Assembly (NCBI RefSeq): GCF_040362765.1
Contig: NZ_BAABWK010000002.1
Location: 62,001-126,000 of the forward strand
Length of the DNA: 64,000 nt
Direction of reading: 5' to 3'
Source: Pyruvatibacter sp. HU-CL02332
GTDB lineage: Bacteria; Pseudomonadota; Alphaproteobacteria; CGMCC-115125
The position numbers and the translations under genes were made by a program. Below the pieces are notes generated by a model, which was not told the origin of the DNA, did no database searches, and worked only from the letters and a program-made list of their open reading frames with translations. This document shows positions 18,039-43,929 of the stretch, piece after piece; the stretch's first letter is position 1; every line of letters starts with the position of its first letter.

Positions 18039-18129
18039 GGAGAGGTGGCCGAGTGGTCGAAGGCGCTCCCCTGCTAAGGGAGTATACGTCAAAAGCGTAT
18101 CGAGGGTTCGAATCCCTTCCTCTCCGCCA
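18039..18129 (+). tRNA. tRNA-Ser (anticodon GCU)
   Basis: A class II tRNA with acceptor stem GGAGAGG/CCTCTCC, anticodon stem CTCCC/GGGAG with loop CTGCTAA (anticodon GCT at 18073-18075), a long variable arm (TATACGTCAAAAGCGTAT), T-loop TTCGAAT and an encoded CCA (18127-18129). It reads AGC and AGU serine codons. It stands alone, and tonB converges on it. Confidence 0.98.
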
Positions 18130-34592: not shown

Positions 34593-35210
34593 ATGACGCA
34601 GATATCCGATCTTTTTACGCGCAATCGCCTTTGGGCGGACCGCATCAAGGAAATCAATCCAAACTTCTTCAGCACGCTGGCAGAACAGCAGTCTCCGGAG
34701 TTCTTGTGGATTGGGTGTGCGGATAGCCGCGTGCCGGCCAATGAGATTGTTGATCTGCCTCCCGGGGGCGTTTTTGTTCACCGGAACATTGCCAATGTTG
34801 TGGTGCCGTCGGATCTCAATTGCCTGTCGGTTATTCAGTATGCGGTTGAAGTATTGCAGGTGAAGCACGTCATTGTGTGTGGGCACTATGGCTGCGGTGG
34901 CGTAAAGGCATCGCTCGATGATGCGGATCACGGCCTCATTGACAACTGGCTGCATCACATTCGTGACGTTGCACGGCTTCATCATGAAGATTTTGATGAT
35001 GGCATGAGCGAAGAAGAGCGGGTCAACAAGTTGTGCGAGCTCAATGTGATTGAGCAGGTCCGCAATGTGGCCAACACAACAATCCTCCGGCACGCATGGG
35101 AGCGTGGCGGGACGGTTGAAGTGCATGGTTGGGTCTACTCGATCGCCGACGGCATCGTGAAAGGCCTGTGCACCCACACAGCAGATGGTCTCAAGGACGA
35201 TGCTGCCTAG
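34593..35210 (+). CDS. can: Beta-class carbonic anhydrase
   Basis: Zinc enzyme (205 aa) interconverting CO2 and bicarbonate. Zinc ligands are Cys42, His98 and Cys101, with the Asp44/Arg46 dyad (GCADSRVPANE; CGHYGCGGV), all at the positions of E. coli Can. No export signal, so cytoplasmic. Directly downstream (51 bp) is a bestrophin-like anion channel, which makes a bicarbonate-handling unit likely. Confidence 0.96.
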   Translation: MTQISDLFTRNRLWADRIKEINPNFFSTLAEQQSPEFLWIGCADSRVPANEIVDLPPGGVFVHRNIANVVVPSDLNCLSVIQYAVEVLQVKHVIVCGHYGCGGVKASLDDADHGLIDNWLHHIRDVARLHHEDFDDGMSEEERVNKLCELNVIEQVRNVANTTILRHAWERGGTVEVHGWVYSIADGIVKGLCTHTADGLKDDAA

Positions 35211-35261
35211 GGCAGCCTCAAGGGCTGCCTGATCTGACGACCGTATACCGGAGCAACCACC

Positions 35262-36290
35262 ATGTATGTCCGCCGCAATATCCGAATTGCGCATGTCTTC
35301 AATGACTCCTGGCGCTTTCTGCTTCTTGTTGGTGTCTGGTCAGCCCTGATTGTCTATTGCTTTGAGTTTTTGGGGTGGGAATTTCTGGCGGTACCGTTTC
35401 TACCGGTATCGACCATCGGCATCGCCGTTGCGCTCTATCTCGGGTTCAAGAGCAACTCGTCATATGCGCGTTGGTGGGAAGCCCGGAAGATCTGGGGTGC
35501 GATTATCAATGACAGTCGCAGCTGGGGAAATCTGGTCTGCCACTTGATCCATGATGACAATGGACGTGTTGACCATGGGGCTCAGCTGGATTTGATGCGC
35601 CGGCATATTGCCTGGGTCAACGCCCTGGCGTTTCAGCTGCGAACCACGACGCGCCTGCGCATCAAACAACGCACCCGTATTTTCGATTTCCGCCGCGACA
35701 TGGACGATCACGCGTTCCATCAGCGCAAGGAAAGCTACCTGCGCTATCTCGAGCAGGAAGAAGTTGATGTCGTCGAGAAATGCGGGAACCCGGCGACCCA
35801 GATCATGCGGCTGCAGGGCGCAGATGTACGTGACCTGGCGCTTGAAGGACAGCTCGACCCGATCCGCGAAGTGTCGATGATGGACATGATCACGCGCTTC
35901 TATGACAGCCAGGGCAAGGCGGAACGCATCGACAAAACGCCATTCCCCCGACAGATCGCGTTTTTCGGGACGGTTTTCACATGGCTGTTTGTCATCCTGC
36001 TGCCGTTTGGGTTTCTGGACGCCTTTCAGGGTGAGGTTGAGACACACGCGCTCAGCCAGTTGATGGGGCAAGAGTACATGTTTGTGCTCGTTCCCTTCAC
36101 CATGCTCATCTCATGGGTGTTTTATGTGATGGAGAAGGTAAGTGACTCGACTGAGGACCCGTTTGAGGGTGGGGTACATGACGTACCTGTGTCGGCCATC
36201 TCCACAACAATTGAGATTGATCTCAAGCAGATGATCGGCATGGATGATGTGCCTGAGCCGCTGAAACCCATCGGCGACGTATTGTACTGA
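35262..36290 (+). CDS. Bestrophin-like anion channel protein
   Basis: A 342-aa bestrophin/UPF0187 family membrane protein. It has an N-terminal signature NDSWRFLLLVGVWSALIVYCFEFLGWEF, VSTIGIAVALYLGFKSNSSYARWWEARKIWGAIINDSRSW (pore helix and neck region) and further hydrophobic segments near FPRQIAFFGTVFTWLFVILLPFGFLDAF and FVLVPFTMLISWVFYVME. It ends with the family DPFEGG...ISTTIEIDLKQM motif. Bestrophins conduct chloride and bicarbonate. Pairing with carbonic anhydrase suggests bicarbonate as the relevant ion here (inference). Confidence 0.92.
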   Translation: MYVRRNIRIAHVFNDSWRFLLLVGVWSALIVYCFEFLGWEFLAVPFLPVSTIGIAVALYLGFKSNSSYARWWEARKIWGAIINDSRSWGNLVCHLIHDDNGRVDHGAQLDLMRRHIAWVNALAFQLRTTTRLRIKQRTRIFDFRRDMDDHAFHQRKESYLRYLEQEEVDVVEKCGNPATQIMRLQGADVRDLALEGQLDPIREVSMMDMITRFYDSQGKAERIDKTPFPRQIAFFGTVFTWLFVILLPFGFLDAFQGEVETHALSQLMGQEYMFVLVPFTMLISWVFYVMEKVSDSTEDPFEGGVHDVPVSAISTTIEIDLKQMIGMDDVPEPLKPIGDVLY

Positions 36291-36395
36291 TTTGGTCACT
36301 GATCCGCAGGCGGATTAACACACCATTTACCATTTGCGCGCAGAGTTTTGCGAACGACGAATATGGGTTCGTGCGAAAAACTTGCGTGAGGGCAC

Positions 36396-36794
36396 ATGGC
36401 GTTCTGCCAGTTGGCGTATGTGAGTGATGTGAGCGGGGCGAATGGGTGTTATCACCCTGATGATCTCACCCACCTTGTCGCCTGCGCCCGGCGCAATAAT
36501 GTGCGTGACGGCATTACCGGCATTCTGCTGACAGGCAATCGGGGCTTCATTCAGGTGATTGAAGGCCCGCGGATGGCCGTCCTGTCCTTGTTTGACAGGC
36601 TCGAGAGTGATCCTCGGCACGAAAACCTCATTCTGCTCCACAAGGGTGATGCGCAGTTGAGGGCTTTTCCCGAGACGCCATTGTCTTTGAGCAAAGCCAG
36701 CCCGGACACCATCCACCAGCTTGAGTCAGCTCTGCCATCCCTGGGAACAGGTCTGTGTGCCAAGCTGACGACCGAGGCAGCCAGCCTCGTTTAG
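36396..36794 (+). CDS. BLUF-domain blue-light photoreceptor, single domain
   Basis: A 132-aa protein that is one BLUF (FAD-binding blue-light) domain with a short tail. The flavin-switch residues are present: Tyr8 (QLAYVS), Asn35 (RRNNVRDGITG) and Gln53 (FIQVIEGP). The usual Trp/Met pair on beta-strand 5 is absent (FPETPLS replaces the FxxWxM pattern). It has no attached output domain, so it must signal through a partner. It follows bestrophin after 105 bp and converges on the PBP-like gene. Confidence 0.9.
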   Translation: MAFCQLAYVSDVSGANGCYHPDDLTHLVACARRNNVRDGITGILLTGNRGFIQVIEGPRMAVLSLFDRLESDPRHENLILLHKGDAQLRAFPETPLSLSKASPDTIHQLESALPSLGTGLCAKLTTEAASLV

Positions 36795-36810: not shown

Positions 36811-37923
36811 TTACTTTGAAAGTGGAATGCAGGCTGCACCGGCTGCTTTGAGCTGGGTGCAAATGCTGCGTGCGGTTGCTTCATCCACGCCAAGATACTT
36901 GGCACGGTAGAGCGTTCCCGTGGCGCGCTGCAGCGGCTCAACCCGTGTGGTGGCCTGAGCGAGCTGGGGTGAAATCTTTGTCGCAGCTGAAAGCTGTGCC
37001 TTGGCTGCAGCTTCCGTCGAAAAGGCGCCAAGCTGAACACCCCAATTTCCAGTGACGATGGCAGCGGTGTTTGTCGGGGCCGGTGTTGCTGTGGTTGCTA
37101 CCGGCGCAGGGGCGGGAGCAAGCTTGTTGGCCTTGGCCGCATTCAGTGAGGTGACGATAAGCTGATCAGCATTTGCCGCATTGGTAGCGTTCCAGACCAC
37201 GGCAATGACATCACGGTCGCCCGCTTTTCCCGTCTTGGCGCGATTGACCTTAGGCGTGACATTTGAACCGGCGGTGCTCGCTGAGCTATTGCCGGAGAGG
37301 GCGCTCAGGAAGTTGCGAGGCCCCTGATAGGTGATGCCTTTCCAAGCGAAACTTGTGCCGACAAGCCCCTTGGCCCGCTCCGGGAATGTGCGCATGAGGG
37401 CCAGCGAGAACTGAATCATGTCGCGCGGCGTTGAGAACTGCTTGGGGTGAGGCGCACCTGAGATGTTGACGAAGCTTGTCTGTGTGAGGCCAAGCTCTTT
37501 GGCCTTTTCGTTCATCATGGCCACAAAGCGCACTTCGGAGCCTGCCAGGAATTCGGCAAGAACTGCTGCTGCGTCATTGGCGGATGCTGCAAGGACTGCG
37601 TCCAGTGCATCGCCGGCCGTGATGGTGTCAAAGTGATCAAGGCCGAGTTTTGGTTGTGGCTGCTGGATGGCTGTCCCGGTCACGAAGATGTTTGTGGTTG
37701 GTTTGACGGTGCCTTTTTCAAACGCTTCAAACATCAAATAGATGGTCATGAGCTTGGGAAGGGCGGCTGCGTGCTGGCGGTTATCTGCATTATCGGCAAG
37801 CAGGACGTCTCCGTTTCGGGCGTCAATTACCACCGCTGAGGCGGCGGCATGGGCTGCTGAAGAGGCCGAAAAGCCTGCAAATCCGAGCAAAACTGCAAAA
37901 GCGCAAGATGCGAAAGCACGCAT
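36811..37923 (-). CDS. D-Ala-D-Ala carboxypeptidase-like SPOR protein, active-site Ser missing
   Basis: A 370-aa exported protein: signal peptide (MRAFASCAFAVLLGFAGFSASSAAHA), a PBP5-like peptidase S11 domain and a C-terminal SPOR domain (about residues 294-370: WGVQLGAFSTEAAAKAQL...CTQLKAAGAACIPL) that binds septal peptidoglycan. The SxN (Ser114-Ala-Asn116) and KTG (230-232) motifs are intact. The SxxK motif reads ALPK: Ala54 (codon GCC, 37762-37764) replaces the catalytic serine. It is therefore probably a non-enzymatic peptidoglycan binder. The ATG at 37923 fits a signal peptide better than GTG at 37965. Divergent from a second SPOR gene. Confidence 0.88.
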   Translation of the reverse strand: MRAFASCAFAVLLGFAGFSASSAAHAAASAVVIDARNGDVLLADNADNRQHAAALPKLMTIYLMFEAFEKGTVKPTTNIFVTGTAIQQPQPKLGLDHFDTITAGDALDAVLAASANDAAAVLAEFLAGSEVRFVAMMNEKAKELGLTQTSFVNISGAPHPKQFSTPRDMIQFSLALMRTFPERAKGLVGTSFAWKGITYQGPRNFLSALSGNSSASTAGSNVTPKVNRAKTGKAGDRDVIAVVWNATNAANADQLIVTSLNAAKANKLAPAPAPVATTATPAPTNTAAIVTGNWGVQLGAFSTEAAAKAQLSAATKISPQLAQATTRVEPLQRATGTLYRAKYLGVDEATARSICTQLKAAGAACIPLSK

Positions 37924-38117
37924 GGCTAAATTTCCTGTTCTAGGCCAAATCGTCTGGTCACACACAGTTTACGGCTTAACCTTACAATCCGCTTAAGACG
38001 GAATTCAGGCGAATTGCAGGCAACGGTCATGCCTCAATTGTTCCTTATTCTGGCAACACTTCCTTTACCCCGTTCGTCGAGCATAGGCCCTGTAATTTCA
38101 TTGCGGGGAGAGGCCCC

Positions 38118-38732
38118 ATGTTCGCTCAGATGACCACACACTCCATGTCGAGCCTGCTGACACGGCTGCTATCCAATCGTGAAGCGCTGAATACGGCGCT
38201 TGCTGGACTGCTGCTTGTTGCCCTTGTGCTGGGTATGTCCGGCAAGGCGCAGGCCGAGGAAGTCGTTGATGATCTGGGCAGCTACGACCGCGAAATGCTT
38301 ACGTCACTGATTGAAGCTGTGATTGCGGCGGATGAAGGCGACATGATCGTGACAGCGGCCATTCCCGATGCCTCTGCGCCAGCGTCCAGCCCGCGGAGCA
38401 TCATTCCATCCCGCCGTGCGGACATCGCTGGAAGTGCCATTGGCAGCCAGCCTGTTGCGGCGTCACCAGTTGATCCTGGCTTTGCCTTGCAGCTTGGCTC
38501 TTTTGCTTCAGCTGAAAATGCCCAGCGCGGGTTTGAGCAGGCCAACACCAAGTATGGTTCAACGCTCGCCAGCAATACGCTTTATGTGCAGCCGATTGAT
38601 CTTGGTGAGCGCGGTGTTTTCCATCGCCTTCGTATTGGCGGCTTTGAGAGCATGCCTCAGGCATCTGCGGCGTGTACCACCCTTGGGATTGAAGCAGCTG
38701 ACTGCATGATTGTTTCTGCCATGATGCAGTAA
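38118..38732 (+). CDS. Membrane-anchored or exported SPOR-domain protein
   Basis: A 204-aa protein with a hydrophobic N-terminal segment (ALAGLLLVALVLGMSGKAQA, either an anchor or a signal peptide with AQA cleavage), a variable acidic linker and a C-terminal SPOR domain (GFALQLGSFASAENAQRGFEQ...VFHRLRIGGFESMPQASAAC). SPOR domains recognise glycan strands denuded by amidases at the division site. The gene shares a 194-bp divergent promoter region with the PBP-like SPOR gene. GGGGAGAGG precedes the ATG. Confidence 0.85.
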   Translation: MFAQMTTHSMSSLLTRLLSNREALNTALAGLLLVALVLGMSGKAQAEEVVDDLGSYDREMLTSLIEAVIAADEGDMIVTAAIPDASAPASSPRSIIPSRRADIAGSAIGSQPVAASPVDPGFALQLGSFASAENAQRGFEQANTKYGSTLASNTLYVQPIDLGERGVFHRLRIGGFESMPQASAACTTLGIEAADCMIVSAMMQ

Positions 38733-40101: not shown

Positions 40102-42237
40102 CTACTGGGTTGCTGGCACTGGCACAGAGGCGGGTGGGGCTGAAGGCACAACACCGGCGCGATGCAGATCCTGAATGAGCTTCACATTCACGGGGCCACC
40201 GGCAAGACGTGCGCGATACACCTGTGTGTTTTCCAAAACGCGCTGAACGTAGTTGCGGGTCTCGGAGAAGGGGATCTGCTCCACCCAGTCAATGGGGTCG
40301 ATGCCCGGTGTGCGCGGGTCGCCATAGGTAGCGATCCATTCATTCACACGGCCGCCACCTGCGTTGTAGGCGGCAATGGTCAGAATGTAGGACCCTCCGA
40401 ACTCATCCAGCAGGTCACCCAGATGGGTGATGCCGATCTGGGCGTTGTAGGTGGGGTCTGTCAGCAGGCGGGACTTGCTGTAGGGCAGGCCATAGGCGTT
40501 GGCCGTCCGTTTCGCAGTACCTGGCATCAGCTGCATAAGGCCACGAGCGCCGGCATGGCTGACGGCCTGCGGGTTGAATTCACTTTCCTGACGAGAAATG
40601 CCGAATGCCAATGCCCGTTCCACAGGTGAGCCAGCCGACGGCACGTTCGGGAGGGCGTTTGTGGGATACGCAAAGTCAGGAAGCTCAATTCCTTTTCGCG
40701 ACGCAATCTTGGCAGTGCGGACAGCGAGGTTCGGACGTCCGGCGATGCGCAGCCAGTTGGCCATGGCTTCCAGGTCGCCAGCATCCGTCAGGTAGCGGGA
40801 CAGATGATAGAAGAAGGCAGTTACGAGACGCTCTTCACCAAGGGCGTTGAGCATCTTCATGGCAGCGACAGCACTGGAGGTGTTGAACGTCGCTGGCGCT
40901 TTGCGTCCTTCAGAGATGATGTTGATGGTGTTGATACCACCCAGCAGCGACTGGCGCGCCAGTTGGCCGTAGAAGGTGGTGTCGTGTTCCGACGCGCGCT
41001 GATAGTAGAAGCCGGCATCTTCCTTGCGACCGTCGGCCTGCGCCGCGCGTCCGGCCCAATATTCTGCACGGGCCTTGCTGATCGGCGTCTTCACATTGGC
41101 TGCAAGGGTGCGGAAGTGGAAGTAAGCCTTGGTGGGATCATTGAGGAACCGCAAGGCAATCCAACCTGCCAGCCATTCGCCTTCGGCAAATGATACGCCG
41201 GATGACATGCCGTGGTTGCGCACCAGGTCATAGGCCGTGCGGAAGTCTCTTTCCTTCAGCAGACGTCGTGCGTGCAGATGGCGCTCGCGCCAGAACTCGT
41301 CCGGGCGGACCATTTCTTCACCGGTTGTCGGTGCGCGCAAAATGAGGGGGACAGCATCGTTCGGCGCACCATTGCGTCGCCGCCAGCGGGCGCGTTCGAG
41401 CAGCAATCCGGGATTGTTGGCCAGGTTGGCCGGGACGGCATTTACGGCGCCATCTACGCCAGCGCTGCGTCTGGCCAGCCGGATGCGGGCTTCAGCGAGT
41501 GCGGCATGGTCCGCTCCGACAAGCGATGCCATTTGCCGGGCATCGGTGGCGTCCTTGTCCCACAACAGCCTGTCGAGACGGGCAATGTGATCCTCGCGGC
41601 GCAGGGTATTACGATGCTGGCGGATGATCTGGGCTTCACGGGTGCTCTCAAAGTCATGCTCAATCCAGCCGGCGCGGACCATGTCGCGTCCCCGCTCTGT
41701 ATCCCCAGCTTCGATTAGAGCTTCACCAAAACGGATCTTGCCGTCGCCGGTGATCGGAGGGTTCAGATCAAACCAGGACAGGATGGAGCCGGTATCCGGG
41801 CGCTCGGCGAGCAAAGCCTCTTCGGCGCGGCGCTCCAGCCGGTCGCGGCGTGGCCAGTCCTGATTGGCGTTCAGGAAGGTCGTGATCTCAATACTGCTGG
41901 CGCCGGAGTTCTTGTCCTGGAGCTCAAGCCAGCGAATGATCTTTGATGCTGTCTGGTCCTTGATGCGTGTTGCTGTTGTCCGGGCTGTGACCCAGTCGCC
42001 GGATTGCGCGTCTGACAGCGCGGACTGGACCAGCGCATAATCTGCGTAGGTCAGGTTCAGGCCGGGAAGGGGAACTGTCGCGTTTGGATCAACGGCAGGG
42101 GGAGCAGGCCGCTGCGCGGGGACTGCCTGTGTATTGCCTGTCAGGGCTCCCAAAGGGACCAGTAAGGCGGCGAGTGCCACGCTGCGAAGGAATGAGCCAA
42201 ACAGGCGAGGAGAGCGGGCAGTCAAAGATGGCATCAT
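40102..42237 (-). CDS. slt: Soluble lytic murein transglycosylase
   Basis: Periplasmic muramidase-like enzyme (711 aa) that cleaves glycan strands with 1,6-anhydro ring formation. A signal segment (FLRSVALAALLVPLGALTG) is followed by a long superhelical alpha domain, then the SLT catalytic domain: FGISRQESEFNPQAVSHAGARGLMQLMPGTAK (catalytic Glu in RQESEF) and TIAAYNAGGGRVNEW. A proline-rich tail ends the protein. It converges on the APC gene with a 15-bp gap. Confidence 0.94.
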   Translation of the reverse strand: MMPSLTARSPRLFGSFLRSVALAALLVPLGALTGNTQAVPAQRPAPPAVDPNATVPLPGLNLTYADYALVQSALSDAQSGDWVTARTTATRIKDQTASKIIRWLELQDKNSGASSIEITTFLNANQDWPRRDRLERRAEEALLAERPDTGSILSWFDLNPPITGDGKIRFGEALIEAGDTERGRDMVRAGWIEHDFESTREAQIIRQHRNTLRREDHIARLDRLLWDKDATDARQMASLVGADHAALAEARIRLARRSAGVDGAVNAVPANLANNPGLLLERARWRRRNGAPNDAVPLILRAPTTGEEMVRPDEFWRERHLHARRLLKERDFRTAYDLVRNHGMSSGVSFAEGEWLAGWIALRFLNDPTKAYFHFRTLAANVKTPISKARAEYWAGRAAQADGRKEDAGFYYQRASEHDTTFYGQLARQSLLGGINTINIISEGRKAPATFNTSSAVAAMKMLNALGEERLVTAFFYHLSRYLTDAGDLEAMANWLRIAGRPNLAVRTAKIASRKGIELPDFAYPTNALPNVPSAGSPVERALAFGISRQESEFNPQAVSHAGARGLMQLMPGTAKRTANAYGLPYSKSRLLTDPTYNAQIGITHLGDLLDEFGGSYILTIAAYNAGGGRVNEWIATYGDPRTPGIDPIDWVEQIPFSETRNYVQRVLENTQVYRARLAGGPVNVKLIQDLHRAGVVPSAPPASVPVPATQ

Positions 42238-42540
42238 TTCTACCAGACTGGAGAAGGTGGTTGGGGATCAGCAGACCGTATTCGCCAGTCTAACCGTGAT
42301 TTGTGTCGTATGGGCGATGCTTTTTATGAATGTGATCGGGCGATTGATCGCAGGCCGGTTTGTGGGAGCAGGGCTTGATAAAGCAATGCAGCATTTGCAT
42401 ATGAGCTAACCTCCTCAGATCAGAGCCAGATCAGACATTGCGGCATGGGACGCGTTCACATAATGTCCGCGCCCGCACCTCATAATGAGGTAACCCGCGC
42501 TGCATCTGCGCCTTCTTTAGTTTTTCCAGGGACCAGACCG
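42238..42540. other. Divergent spacer slt/dapA
   Basis: A 303-bp region with no supported gene. A frame to 42445 upstream of dapA is open but unlike the family, so it is treated as leader. The main structure is a perfect 7-1-7 palindrome at 42477-42491, listed separately. Confidence 0.5.
42477..42491. promoter_or_regulatory. Perfect palindrome upstream of dapA
   Basis: ACCTCAT-A-ATGAGGT has 7-bp perfect arms and a one-base centre, about 50 bp before the dapA ATG. The position suits an operator or an mRNA 5' hairpin. The right arm contains GAGGT, similar to a ribosome-binding core, but it is too far from the ATG. Function is unknown. Confidence 0.4.
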
Positions 42541-43419
42541 ATGTTTAAAGGCTCAATTGTCGCTCTCATCACACCATTTGATGGTGAGAATGTGGACGAG
42601 AAAGCGCTGCGCGGTCTTGTGGACTGGCATGTGGACCAGGGCACGCACGGCATTGTGCCCTGTGGCACGACCGGTGAAAGCCCGACACTGAGCCATGACG
42701 AGCACAAGCGCGTGGTGGAGATCGTCGTTGAGCAGGCTGCCGGTCGCGTCCCCATCATGGCGGGTACCGGCTCGAACGCGACTGCTGAAGCCATTGAGTT
42801 CACCCAGCACGCCGCAAAGGTCGGTGCGCAGGGCGCTCTGGTTGTGACGCCGTATTACAACAAGCCGTCTCAGGAAGGGCTGTATCAGCACTATCTTGCC
42901 GTGGCGGACAGTGCTGACATTCCCGTGTTCATTTACAATGTGCCATCACGCAGTGTTGTGGACATGAGTGTTGACACAATGGCGCGGCTGGCAGAGCACA
43001 AAAACATTGTCGGTGTGAAGGATGCGACGGCTGAACTTGATCGGGTCATGCTGACGCGCGCTGCCATCGGCCCGGACTTCATTCAGCTGACCGGTGAAGA
43101 TGCCTCCGCACTCGCACACCATGCGATGGGCGGTGTGGGTTGCATTTCTGTGACCGCCAATGTGGCGCCTGCTGCCTGTGCTGAGTTTCAGAATGCCTGC
43201 ATGGCCAAGGACTATGACCGCGCACGGGAAATCCAGGATCGTCTGATCGGTGTTCATGAGGCCATGTTCTGTGAAACGAGCCCTGCGCCGGTCACTTATG
43301 GATGCAGTCTGCTGGGTCTTGCGCCGAACACGGTACGCTTGCCGTTGGTGACCGCGTCTGCGGCGGCAGAAGCGCAGGTGCGTGAAGCCATGTCCAAAGC
43401 CGGGCTTCTCAATAGCTGA
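42541..43419 (+). CDS. dapA: 4-hydroxy-tetrahydrodipicolinate synthase
   Basis: Condenses pyruvate with aspartate semialdehyde in lysine/diaminopimelate synthesis. The 292-aa TIM-barrel has GTTGESPTLS (Thr pair), the catalytic Tyr in IYNVPSRSVVD and the Schiff-base Lys in GVKDATAELDR. The ATG at 42541 gives the canonical start FKGSIVALITPF; an in-frame ATG at 42445 would add 32 atypical residues. smpB follows after 27 bp. Confidence 0.96.
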   Translation: MFKGSIVALITPFDGENVDEKALRGLVDWHVDQGTHGIVPCGTTGESPTLSHDEHKRVVEIVVEQAAGRVPIMAGTGSNATAEAIEFTQHAAKVGAQGALVVTPYYNKPSQEGLYQHYLAVADSADIPVFIYNVPSRSVVDMSVDTMARLAEHKNIVGVKDATAELDRVMLTRAAIGPDFIQLTGEDASALAHHAMGGVGCISVTANVAPAACAEFQNACMAKDYDRAREIQDRLIGVHEAMFCETSPAPVTYGCSLLGLAPNTVRLPLVTASAAAEAQVREAMSKAGLLNS

Positions 43420-43446
43420 TTTTAGTCAGCATCAGGATCAAATCTC

Positions 43447-43929
43447 ATGGCAGCGAAAAAGAAAGGGGCGTCGGTACAGCACAAGGTGGCTGCTGAAAAC
43501 CGTAAGGCGCGCCATGCCTATGAGATTGGTGACACGATGGAAACCGGTGTGATGCTGCAAGGCACCGAGGTTAAGTCCCTGCGTGATGGCCGGTCCAACA
43601 TCGCGGAAAGCTATGCTTCCATTGAAAATGGTGAGTTGTGGCTCATCAACAGCTACATCCCCATCTACAACGCTGCGAGCCGTTTCAACCATGCGCCGCG
43701 TCGCCCGCGCAAACTGCTGGTGCATGCCCGCGAACTTGCAAAGCTGCATGCGGCTGTCCAGCGTGATGGCATGACGCTGGTGCCGCTCAAGCTCTATTTC
43801 AATGACAAAGGCCGGGCAAAACTCGAACTTGCGATTGCCAAGGGGCGCAAGGCCCACGACAAGCGCGAGGCGGACAAGAAGCGTGACTGGCAGCGCGACA
43901 AGGCGCGGATCATGCGCGAACGCGGTTAG
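43447..43929 (+). CDS. smpB: SsrA-binding protein SmpB
   Basis: Binds tmRNA and brings it to stalled ribosomes (trans-translation). The 160-aa OB-fold protein has [39 protein letters not shown] and the basic tail [22 protein letters not shown] that inserts into the mRNA channel. It follows dapA, a frequent order in alphaproteobacteria. Its stop overlaps the stop of the convergent glycosylase gene (TTAG). Confidence 0.97.

Follow-up and report, generated by a model that had tools for sequence, protein, structure and literature searches.

Can a carboxypeptidase fold that has lost its catalytic serine still serve the cell, and if so, in what capacity? This question is raised by a divergent gene pair in a stretch of 64,000 nucleotides (the window), taken from a 3.4-Mb genome of three contigs (G000). 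One gene encodes a PBP5-like protein of the S11 type with Ala at the nucleophile position of the SxxK motif and a SPOR domain at its C-terminus, while the other gene encodes a second SPOR protein. According to the initial annotation, a domain that binds but does not cleave its substrate, fused to a septum-targeting domain, could sense or shield pentapeptide stems at the division site. Here, we ask how far the altered active site extends among related bacteria, what is left of the substrate pocket, and which role the conserved remainder may play.

The Locus and Its Gene Products

The features of the locus are compiled in Table 1. Open reading frames and Pfam matches confirm the PBP5-like gene, its divergent SPOR neighbor and the gap between them as initially annotated. 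Likewise, residue 54 is indeed Ala (codon GCC, 37762-37764) at the position of the nucleophilic Ser. A second change within the motif, T to P, gives rise to the sequence ALPK. In the ORF list the gene begins with a GTG at 37965; we used the ATG at 37923 as the start codon, because Met-Arg at this place is common to all four orthologues described below.

Table 1. Features of the divergent SPOR locus, with positions in the window.
Feature	Position	Strand	Evidence
Putatively non-catalytic S11 (PBP5-like) and SPOR protein, 370 aa	36811..37923	-	ORF; Pfam; Met start in 4/4 orthologues
S11 fold domain, residues ~27-247	37183..37845	-	Pfam PF00768; AlphaFold model compared with PBP5/PBP6 structures
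Degenerate SxxK, A54-L-P-K57	37753..37764	-	Sequence; Ala in 4/4 genus orthologues
SxN, S114-A-N116	37576..37584	-	Present here; NAN in orthologue G002
Column in which active enzymes have KTG, residues 216-218 (here STA, box lost)	37270..37278	-	Three MAFFT modes; column table; AlphaFold
Out-of-register KTG string, residues 230-232, strand beta-4	37228..37236	-	Alignment and AlphaFold; KST in G002
C-terminal SPOR domain, residues 292-366	36826..37050	-	Pfam PF05036, E=8.3e-7
Divergent intergenic region, 194 bp	37924..38117	.	Blocks identical in 4/4 genomes: 37977-37989, 38052-38074
Partner, 204-aa SPOR protein	38118..38732	+	Pfam SPOR; adjoins the Ala54 gene in 4/4 genus genomes

The Ala54 protein matches Peptidase_S11 with E=6.3e-41 (140.8 bits, cut-off 27.6) and SPOR with 29.7 bits (cut-off 21). 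Together with Beta-lactamase2, these are its only Pfam matches at E<=0.01; neither a PBP5_C nor a LytM domain was found in the Pfam scan. By eye, the N-terminus resembles a signal peptide.

Distribution of the Alanine Variant

Searches of the family and of the order both lead to the same four genomes, all of a single genus (Candidatus Phaeomarinobacter-like), and the gene is present in each of them (100, 96, 87, and 72% identity). All four orthologues read A-L-P-K. The initial annotation had named Ser in orthologues as evidence against its reading, and none of the four carries it; since the same Ala recurs in four of four genomes, it does not represent a sequencing error.

Outside the genus, Ser occupies the nucleophile position in 190 of 191 S11 stretches. 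It was found in all 26 best relatives of the class, in all 79 non-congener loci among the best 80 of 439 relatives of a contig scan, and in 80 of 80 further S11 stretches of the class. No near-identical pairs occur across these three sets. A final set of six outside stretches contributes five with Ser, the sixth (G030:C6) being too damaged to be scored. The 80 further stretches are also intact in SxN without exception, and the KTG box is intact in all 67 of them that reach it, the other 13 ending before the box.

Damaged genes were observed among these relatives as well. Within the 1267 bases read of G030:C6 (L232), SxN and KTG are intact, an in-frame stop is present, and the SxxK region is unreadable in every frame. 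In G053:C59 (L233) the SxxK Ser and KTG lie in different frames, the frame changing after SxxK. Both broken S11-SPOR genes reflect either real decay or assembly errors. A further stretch, G005:C170 (L156), has an internal stop and is counted among those with Ser.

Orthologues of the Ala54 protein outside the genus were not found in the family, order, class-sample, and contig searches. Across 385 genomes of the class, the score drops from 531.6 bits for the weakest genus orthologue to 193.7 bits for the best outside protein among the matches listed, and a genus profile run against 59 genomes reveals a comparable break from 725.4 to 218.1. The contig scan, a method that reaches close relatives only, yielded a congener as the sole close match among the best 80 of 439 relatives. 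At the DNA level, the pattern A-L-[TP]-K-x-M-T, which is too specific to detect any other substitution of the Ser, occurs at 15 sites in 14 of the 385 class genomes, namely in these four genes and in 11 unrelated frames (10 sites for a reversed-pattern control). So far, this family comes from a single genus, represented by four genomes. In the tree, the four proteins form a monophyletic group (100/100) on a long branch of 3.32 changes per column, and the tree gives no firm position of this group among the S11-SPOR proteins of the class, nor does it firmly place its origin by duplication.

Fate of the Substrate Pocket

In active S11 enzymes, the KTG strand contacts the terminal carboxylate of the substrate. 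The initial annotation listed both SxN and KTG as retained, of which the first assignment holds in part and the second does not. SxN is present as SAN in the window protein and in two orthologues, and as NAN in G002. The KTG column of the active enzymes falls on residues 216-218 in all three MAFFT modes, where the four orthologues read STA, STA, GVA, and NLG, such that the Lys of the box is absent in every case. The KTG string that is visible in the window protein lies 14 residues downstream of the true box and aligns with the next strand.

For a broader view, we compared the four Ala54 proteins with 29 active relatives, i.e., the 26 from outside the genus and three intact paralogues from within it, leaving out a truncated copy of G003. 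There are 59 positions at which at least 90% of the active relatives agree, and 34 of them, including K57, N116, and D117, have remained the same throughout the four Ala54 proteins. The 25 positions not kept include P52, S54, L157, N203, G214, K216, G225, and R252, along with minor substitutions, e.g., L61I and M146L. Seven residues that are identical in 29 of 29 active relatives (P52, L157, N203, G214, G225, G245, and R252) are lost in four of four Ala54 proteins. Conversely, 57 positions are invariant among the four and have the same residue in at most one active relative.

A structure model of the window protein (AlphaFold, mean pLDDT 74.2) matches P. aeruginosa PBP5 with Z 28.8 over 243 residues and E. 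coli PBP6 with Z 28.7 over 232 residues. Ten-residue means of pLDDT reach at least 85 in 16 of 17 blocks between residues 31 and 200 and range from 44 to 84 over residues 201-260. No strand is modelled between 213 and 225, residues 214-221 fall below a pLDDT of 50, and the KTG string is part of a strand at 226-234 that lacks beta-3 before it. As a control, an active S11-SPOR relative (L020) was modelled from the same set of 33 sequences; here, KTG (191-193) lies within strand 187-195, i.e., beta-3, and two more strands follow. The model of the Ala54 protein is weaker precisely at the missing beta-3, and the alignments behind both models contain the sequences themselves, so that AlphaFold and alignment are not fully independent witnesses on the KTG box.

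The S11 fold is kept, whereas the pentapeptide pocket, as judged from its three motifs, seems to have been taken apart. This speaks against a role in sensing or shielding pentapeptides. In the form implied by the initial annotation, the S11 domain would bind D-Ala-D-Ala stems non-covalently and protect or report them at the septum. The Lys of SxxK and the Asn of SxN, kept in four of four proteins, and the Ser of SxN, kept in three of four, speak for such binding, and PBP6a has been suggested to act as a protector of the fifth D-Ala (PMC5596342). Against it stand the seven lost invariant residues, insofar as they line the pocket, the change to NAN in G002, and a variable loop of low confidence in place of the KTG strand. 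Moreover, the S44G variant of E. coli PBP5, altered in the catalytic Ser alone, is reported to be absent from midcell, where the authors tie the presence of the enzyme to pentapeptide binding and read the variant as not binding midcell pentapeptide (PMC5596342). Substrate binding as initially proposed thereby loses its footing, and with it the basis for sensing or shielding; we consider this role unlikely.

The retention of K57, N116, and D117 in all four proteins leaves room for residual or altered chemistry, and a repurposed enzyme with some other, non-serine activity on peptidoglycan would explain why these residues are invariant. However, position 54 offers no evident replacement nucleophile (Ala in four of four), the loop replacing the KTG box is variable, and the three residues may persist for reasons of stability. 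A repurposed enzyme therefore appears very improbable to us. By motif, the assignment as a pseudoenzyme is strongly supported, as none of the four orthologues has retained the nucleophile or the KTG box.

Selection on the Gene

Purifying selection on the protein is strong. Between G000 and G001, the closest and least saturated pair, dN/dS (Nei-Gojobori) amounts to 0.018 for the S11 core, 0.014 for SPOR, 0.137 for the linker, and 0.036 for the whole gene. For the same pair, whole-gene values of the intact paralogues are 0.036 (S11-SPOR) and 0.047 (Dac). Wider pairs are near saturation (pS 0.63 and 0.74) and give rough values of 0.05 and 0.041 for the S11 core, compared to 0.06 and 0.12 for SPOR.

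Such constraint on the S11 core is compatible neither with a decaying gene nor with a sequencing error. Catalytic motifs would be the expected first losses of a paralogue on its way out, and a defect of sequencing or assembly might mimic this state, but the four orthologues share their Ala, are free of stops, show dN/dS far below 1, and keep their synteny, which makes recent decay or error a highly remote explanation. Sequencing error and pseudogene formation were ruled out on account of the four orthologues and dN/dS.

The same values bear on the view that SPOR is the working part of the protein and the S11 domain a mere spacer. A spacer has no need of catalytic residues, this locus combines two adjacent SPOR genes, and in the closest pair SPOR is marginally tighter than the S11 core. 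Nevertheless, the constraint on the core is similar to that on SPOR, also in the wider, nearly saturated pairs, and the part that evolves loosely is the linker, which is a true spacer. We hold a spacer role of the S11 domain to be rather doubtful. The catalytic inactivity predicted by the initial annotation, in turn, agrees with the absence of nucleophile and KTG box from all four orthologues and with a fold under strong purifying selection.

Paralogues and SPOR Domains of the Genome

The initial annotation had proposed to look for an active paralogue elsewhere in the genome, and two further S11 genes are present, both of them intact. One is a Dac protein with SxxK, SGN, KTG, and PBP5_C; the other is of the S11-SPOR type with PASLTK, SAND, and KTG. 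In all four genomes of the genus, clpS adjoins the intact S11-SPOR paralogue, whose copy in G003 is truncated at the end of a contig. Likewise, clpS lies within about 1.5 kb of 13 of the 26 outside relatives. In contrast, no ClpS match was found in the flanks of the Ala54 gene at the four genus loci L004-L007 (about 1.5 kb, shorter for L006). This linkage is a trait of the intact members seen here and corresponds to no published criterion.

A scan of four intact relatives of the S11-SPOR type matched SPOR in each of them, twice with a score above the Pfam cut-off, and the genome has seven SPOR matches in total at E<=0.01. One of these matches directly precedes the intact Dac gene in the same orientation (G000:C2:403076-404212), an arrangement that would resemble an RlpA-DacA pair.

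SPOR domains are reported to bind glycan stripped of stem peptides, with a Gln and an arginine patch as contacts (PMC6895207). By eye, the Ala54 proteins keep the Q of VQLGAF, and their basic patch reads R-A-K in three cases and R-A-Q in G002. Four other SPOR domains out of the seven matches of the genome, the divergent neighbor and three more, carry R-x-R instead. Owing to the partly kept basic patch, glycan binding may be weak. Fusion to a septum-targeting domain, as initially annotated, holds at the level of the domain, i.e., by the Pfam match and motif comparison.

The Divergent Partner and Gene Neighborhood

The partner protein contains a hydrophobic stretch in its N-terminal part and SPOR at its C-terminus (E=3.6e-9, 37.3 bits). 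It was matched in 32 of 95 other genomes of the class, where all of the matches listed begin at residue 65 or later and leave the first 64 residues uncovered. The divergent arrangement is conserved throughout the genus with gaps of 194 bp (window genome), 206 bp (G001), 208 bp (G003), and 196 bp (G002). From its position, the partner probably belongs to the same regulon as the Ala54 gene.

Two blocks of 13 and 23 bp within the intergenic region are identical in four of four genomes, the rest of the region being variable. A sigma-70-type consensus was not found in this region, and the conserved blocks are possible sites of a regulator or of an alternative sigma factor.

In G001 and G002, the two genomes read more widely, the gene order carbonic anhydrase-bestrophin-BLUF-Ala54 gene-SPOR-amino acid permease-SLT-DHDPS is preserved. 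On the window, carbonic anhydrase, a bestrophin-type channel, and a BLUF blue-light sensor follow each other at 34593-36794 (+) according to Pfam; this row also occurs in G001, G002, and L019 and possibly serves a light-linked bicarbonate or anion function. On the other side, genes for a soluble lytic transglycosylase, DHDPS, and SmpB (Pfam) were observed near the SPOR pair at 40102-43929, the former two having the same location in G001 and G002. A single tRNA gene was found in the window, namely tRNA-Ser (gct) at 18039-18129 (+).

Putative Function and Relation to Known Systems

The Ala54 protein is a putative pseudoenzyme and a relative of the S11-SPOR carboxypeptidases of Alphaproteobacteria, which have the architecture of CrbA. 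CrbA of Caulobacter crescentus combines S11 with a C-terminal SPOR domain in the same order (SPOR construct 371-451; PMC10336132) and is described as a divisome-associated carboxypeptidase, whose deletion leads to an increase in pentapeptides (PMC6373972). The likeness is one of architecture, and it ends at the active site, where CrbA is a reported carboxypeptidase whereas the Ala54 protein lacks nucleophile and KTG box. On this account, we do not class the protein as a carboxypeptidase in spite of its CrbA-like architecture. The genomic context differs as well: clpS accompanies the intact S11-SPOR paralogue of the genus and 13 of 26 outside relatives, but was not found in the flanks read of the Ala54 gene.

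PBP5 and PBP6 of E. coli (DacA, DacC) and PBP5 of P. aeruginosa share the fold of the Ala54 protein, which differs from them in having neither the Ser of SxxK nor a KTG box nor PBP5_C, and in its SPOR C-terminus. In E. coli, PBP5 and PBP6a are reported to form homodimers, and inactive PBP5 S44G to change cell shape, although cells that lack PBP5 are only slightly impaired (PMC5596342).

In its logic, the protein may be compared to the LytM regulators DipM, EnvC, and NlpD, which combine an inactive hydrolase fold with a module that binds peptidoglycan and dock or regulate autolysins. These inactive folds are described as switches of wall cutting, the cases discussed being of the LytM fold (PMC10336132). 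The inactive LytM domain of DipM is reported to interact with SdpA, SdpB, AmiC, and CrbA, its degenerate groove being the predicted docking site of autolysins; in vitro, DipM binds SdpA, SdpB, AmiC, CrbA, and FtsN, as well as the SPOR domain of CrbA (PMC10336132). The analogy has its limits, as the fold of the Ala54 protein is S11 rather than LytM and its glycan binder is SPOR rather than LysM.

With these systems in mind, we lean slightly towards a conserved, genus-specific pseudoenzyme in which a SPOR-tethered, non-catalytic S11 module acts via protein contacts at the septum. In such a scheme, the protein would be exported, its SPOR domain would hold it on denuded septal (or polar) glycan, and the contacts of the S11 fold would turn it into a non-catalytic docking or regulatory module. 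SPOR could replace pentapeptide binding as the route to midcell. Candidate partners are the intact S11-SPOR paralogue, Dac, or another septal hydrolase; pairing with a paralogue is modelled on the homodimers of PBP5 and PBP6a, and docking of a hydrolase on the inactive LytM domain of DipM. More tentatively, the protein might be the S11 counterpart of the inactive LytM regulators, a SPOR-tethered factor that controls the intact S11-SPOR enzyme via S11-S11 contacts and is placed by denuded glycan after having lost pentapeptide binding.

In the open-licence literature searched, with terms that may miss some cases, no natural S11 or S11-SPOR protein of this inactive kind was found. While the S11-SPOR architecture is known from CrbA, its version with a predicted degenerate catalytic site appears to be new and is so far confined to one genus. 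In this marine genus, the look-alike fold probably serves binding or regulation at the division site and not catalysis. If so, the principle of the inactive hydrolase as a regulator would be extended to the carboxypeptidase branch, alongside intact S11 enzymes of the same genus. The work on S44G in E. coli suggests that non-catalytic roles of PBP5-like proteins matter (PMC5596342), and in a conserved PBP5-type fold devoid of catalysis, nature itself would have separated these roles from the catalytic ones.
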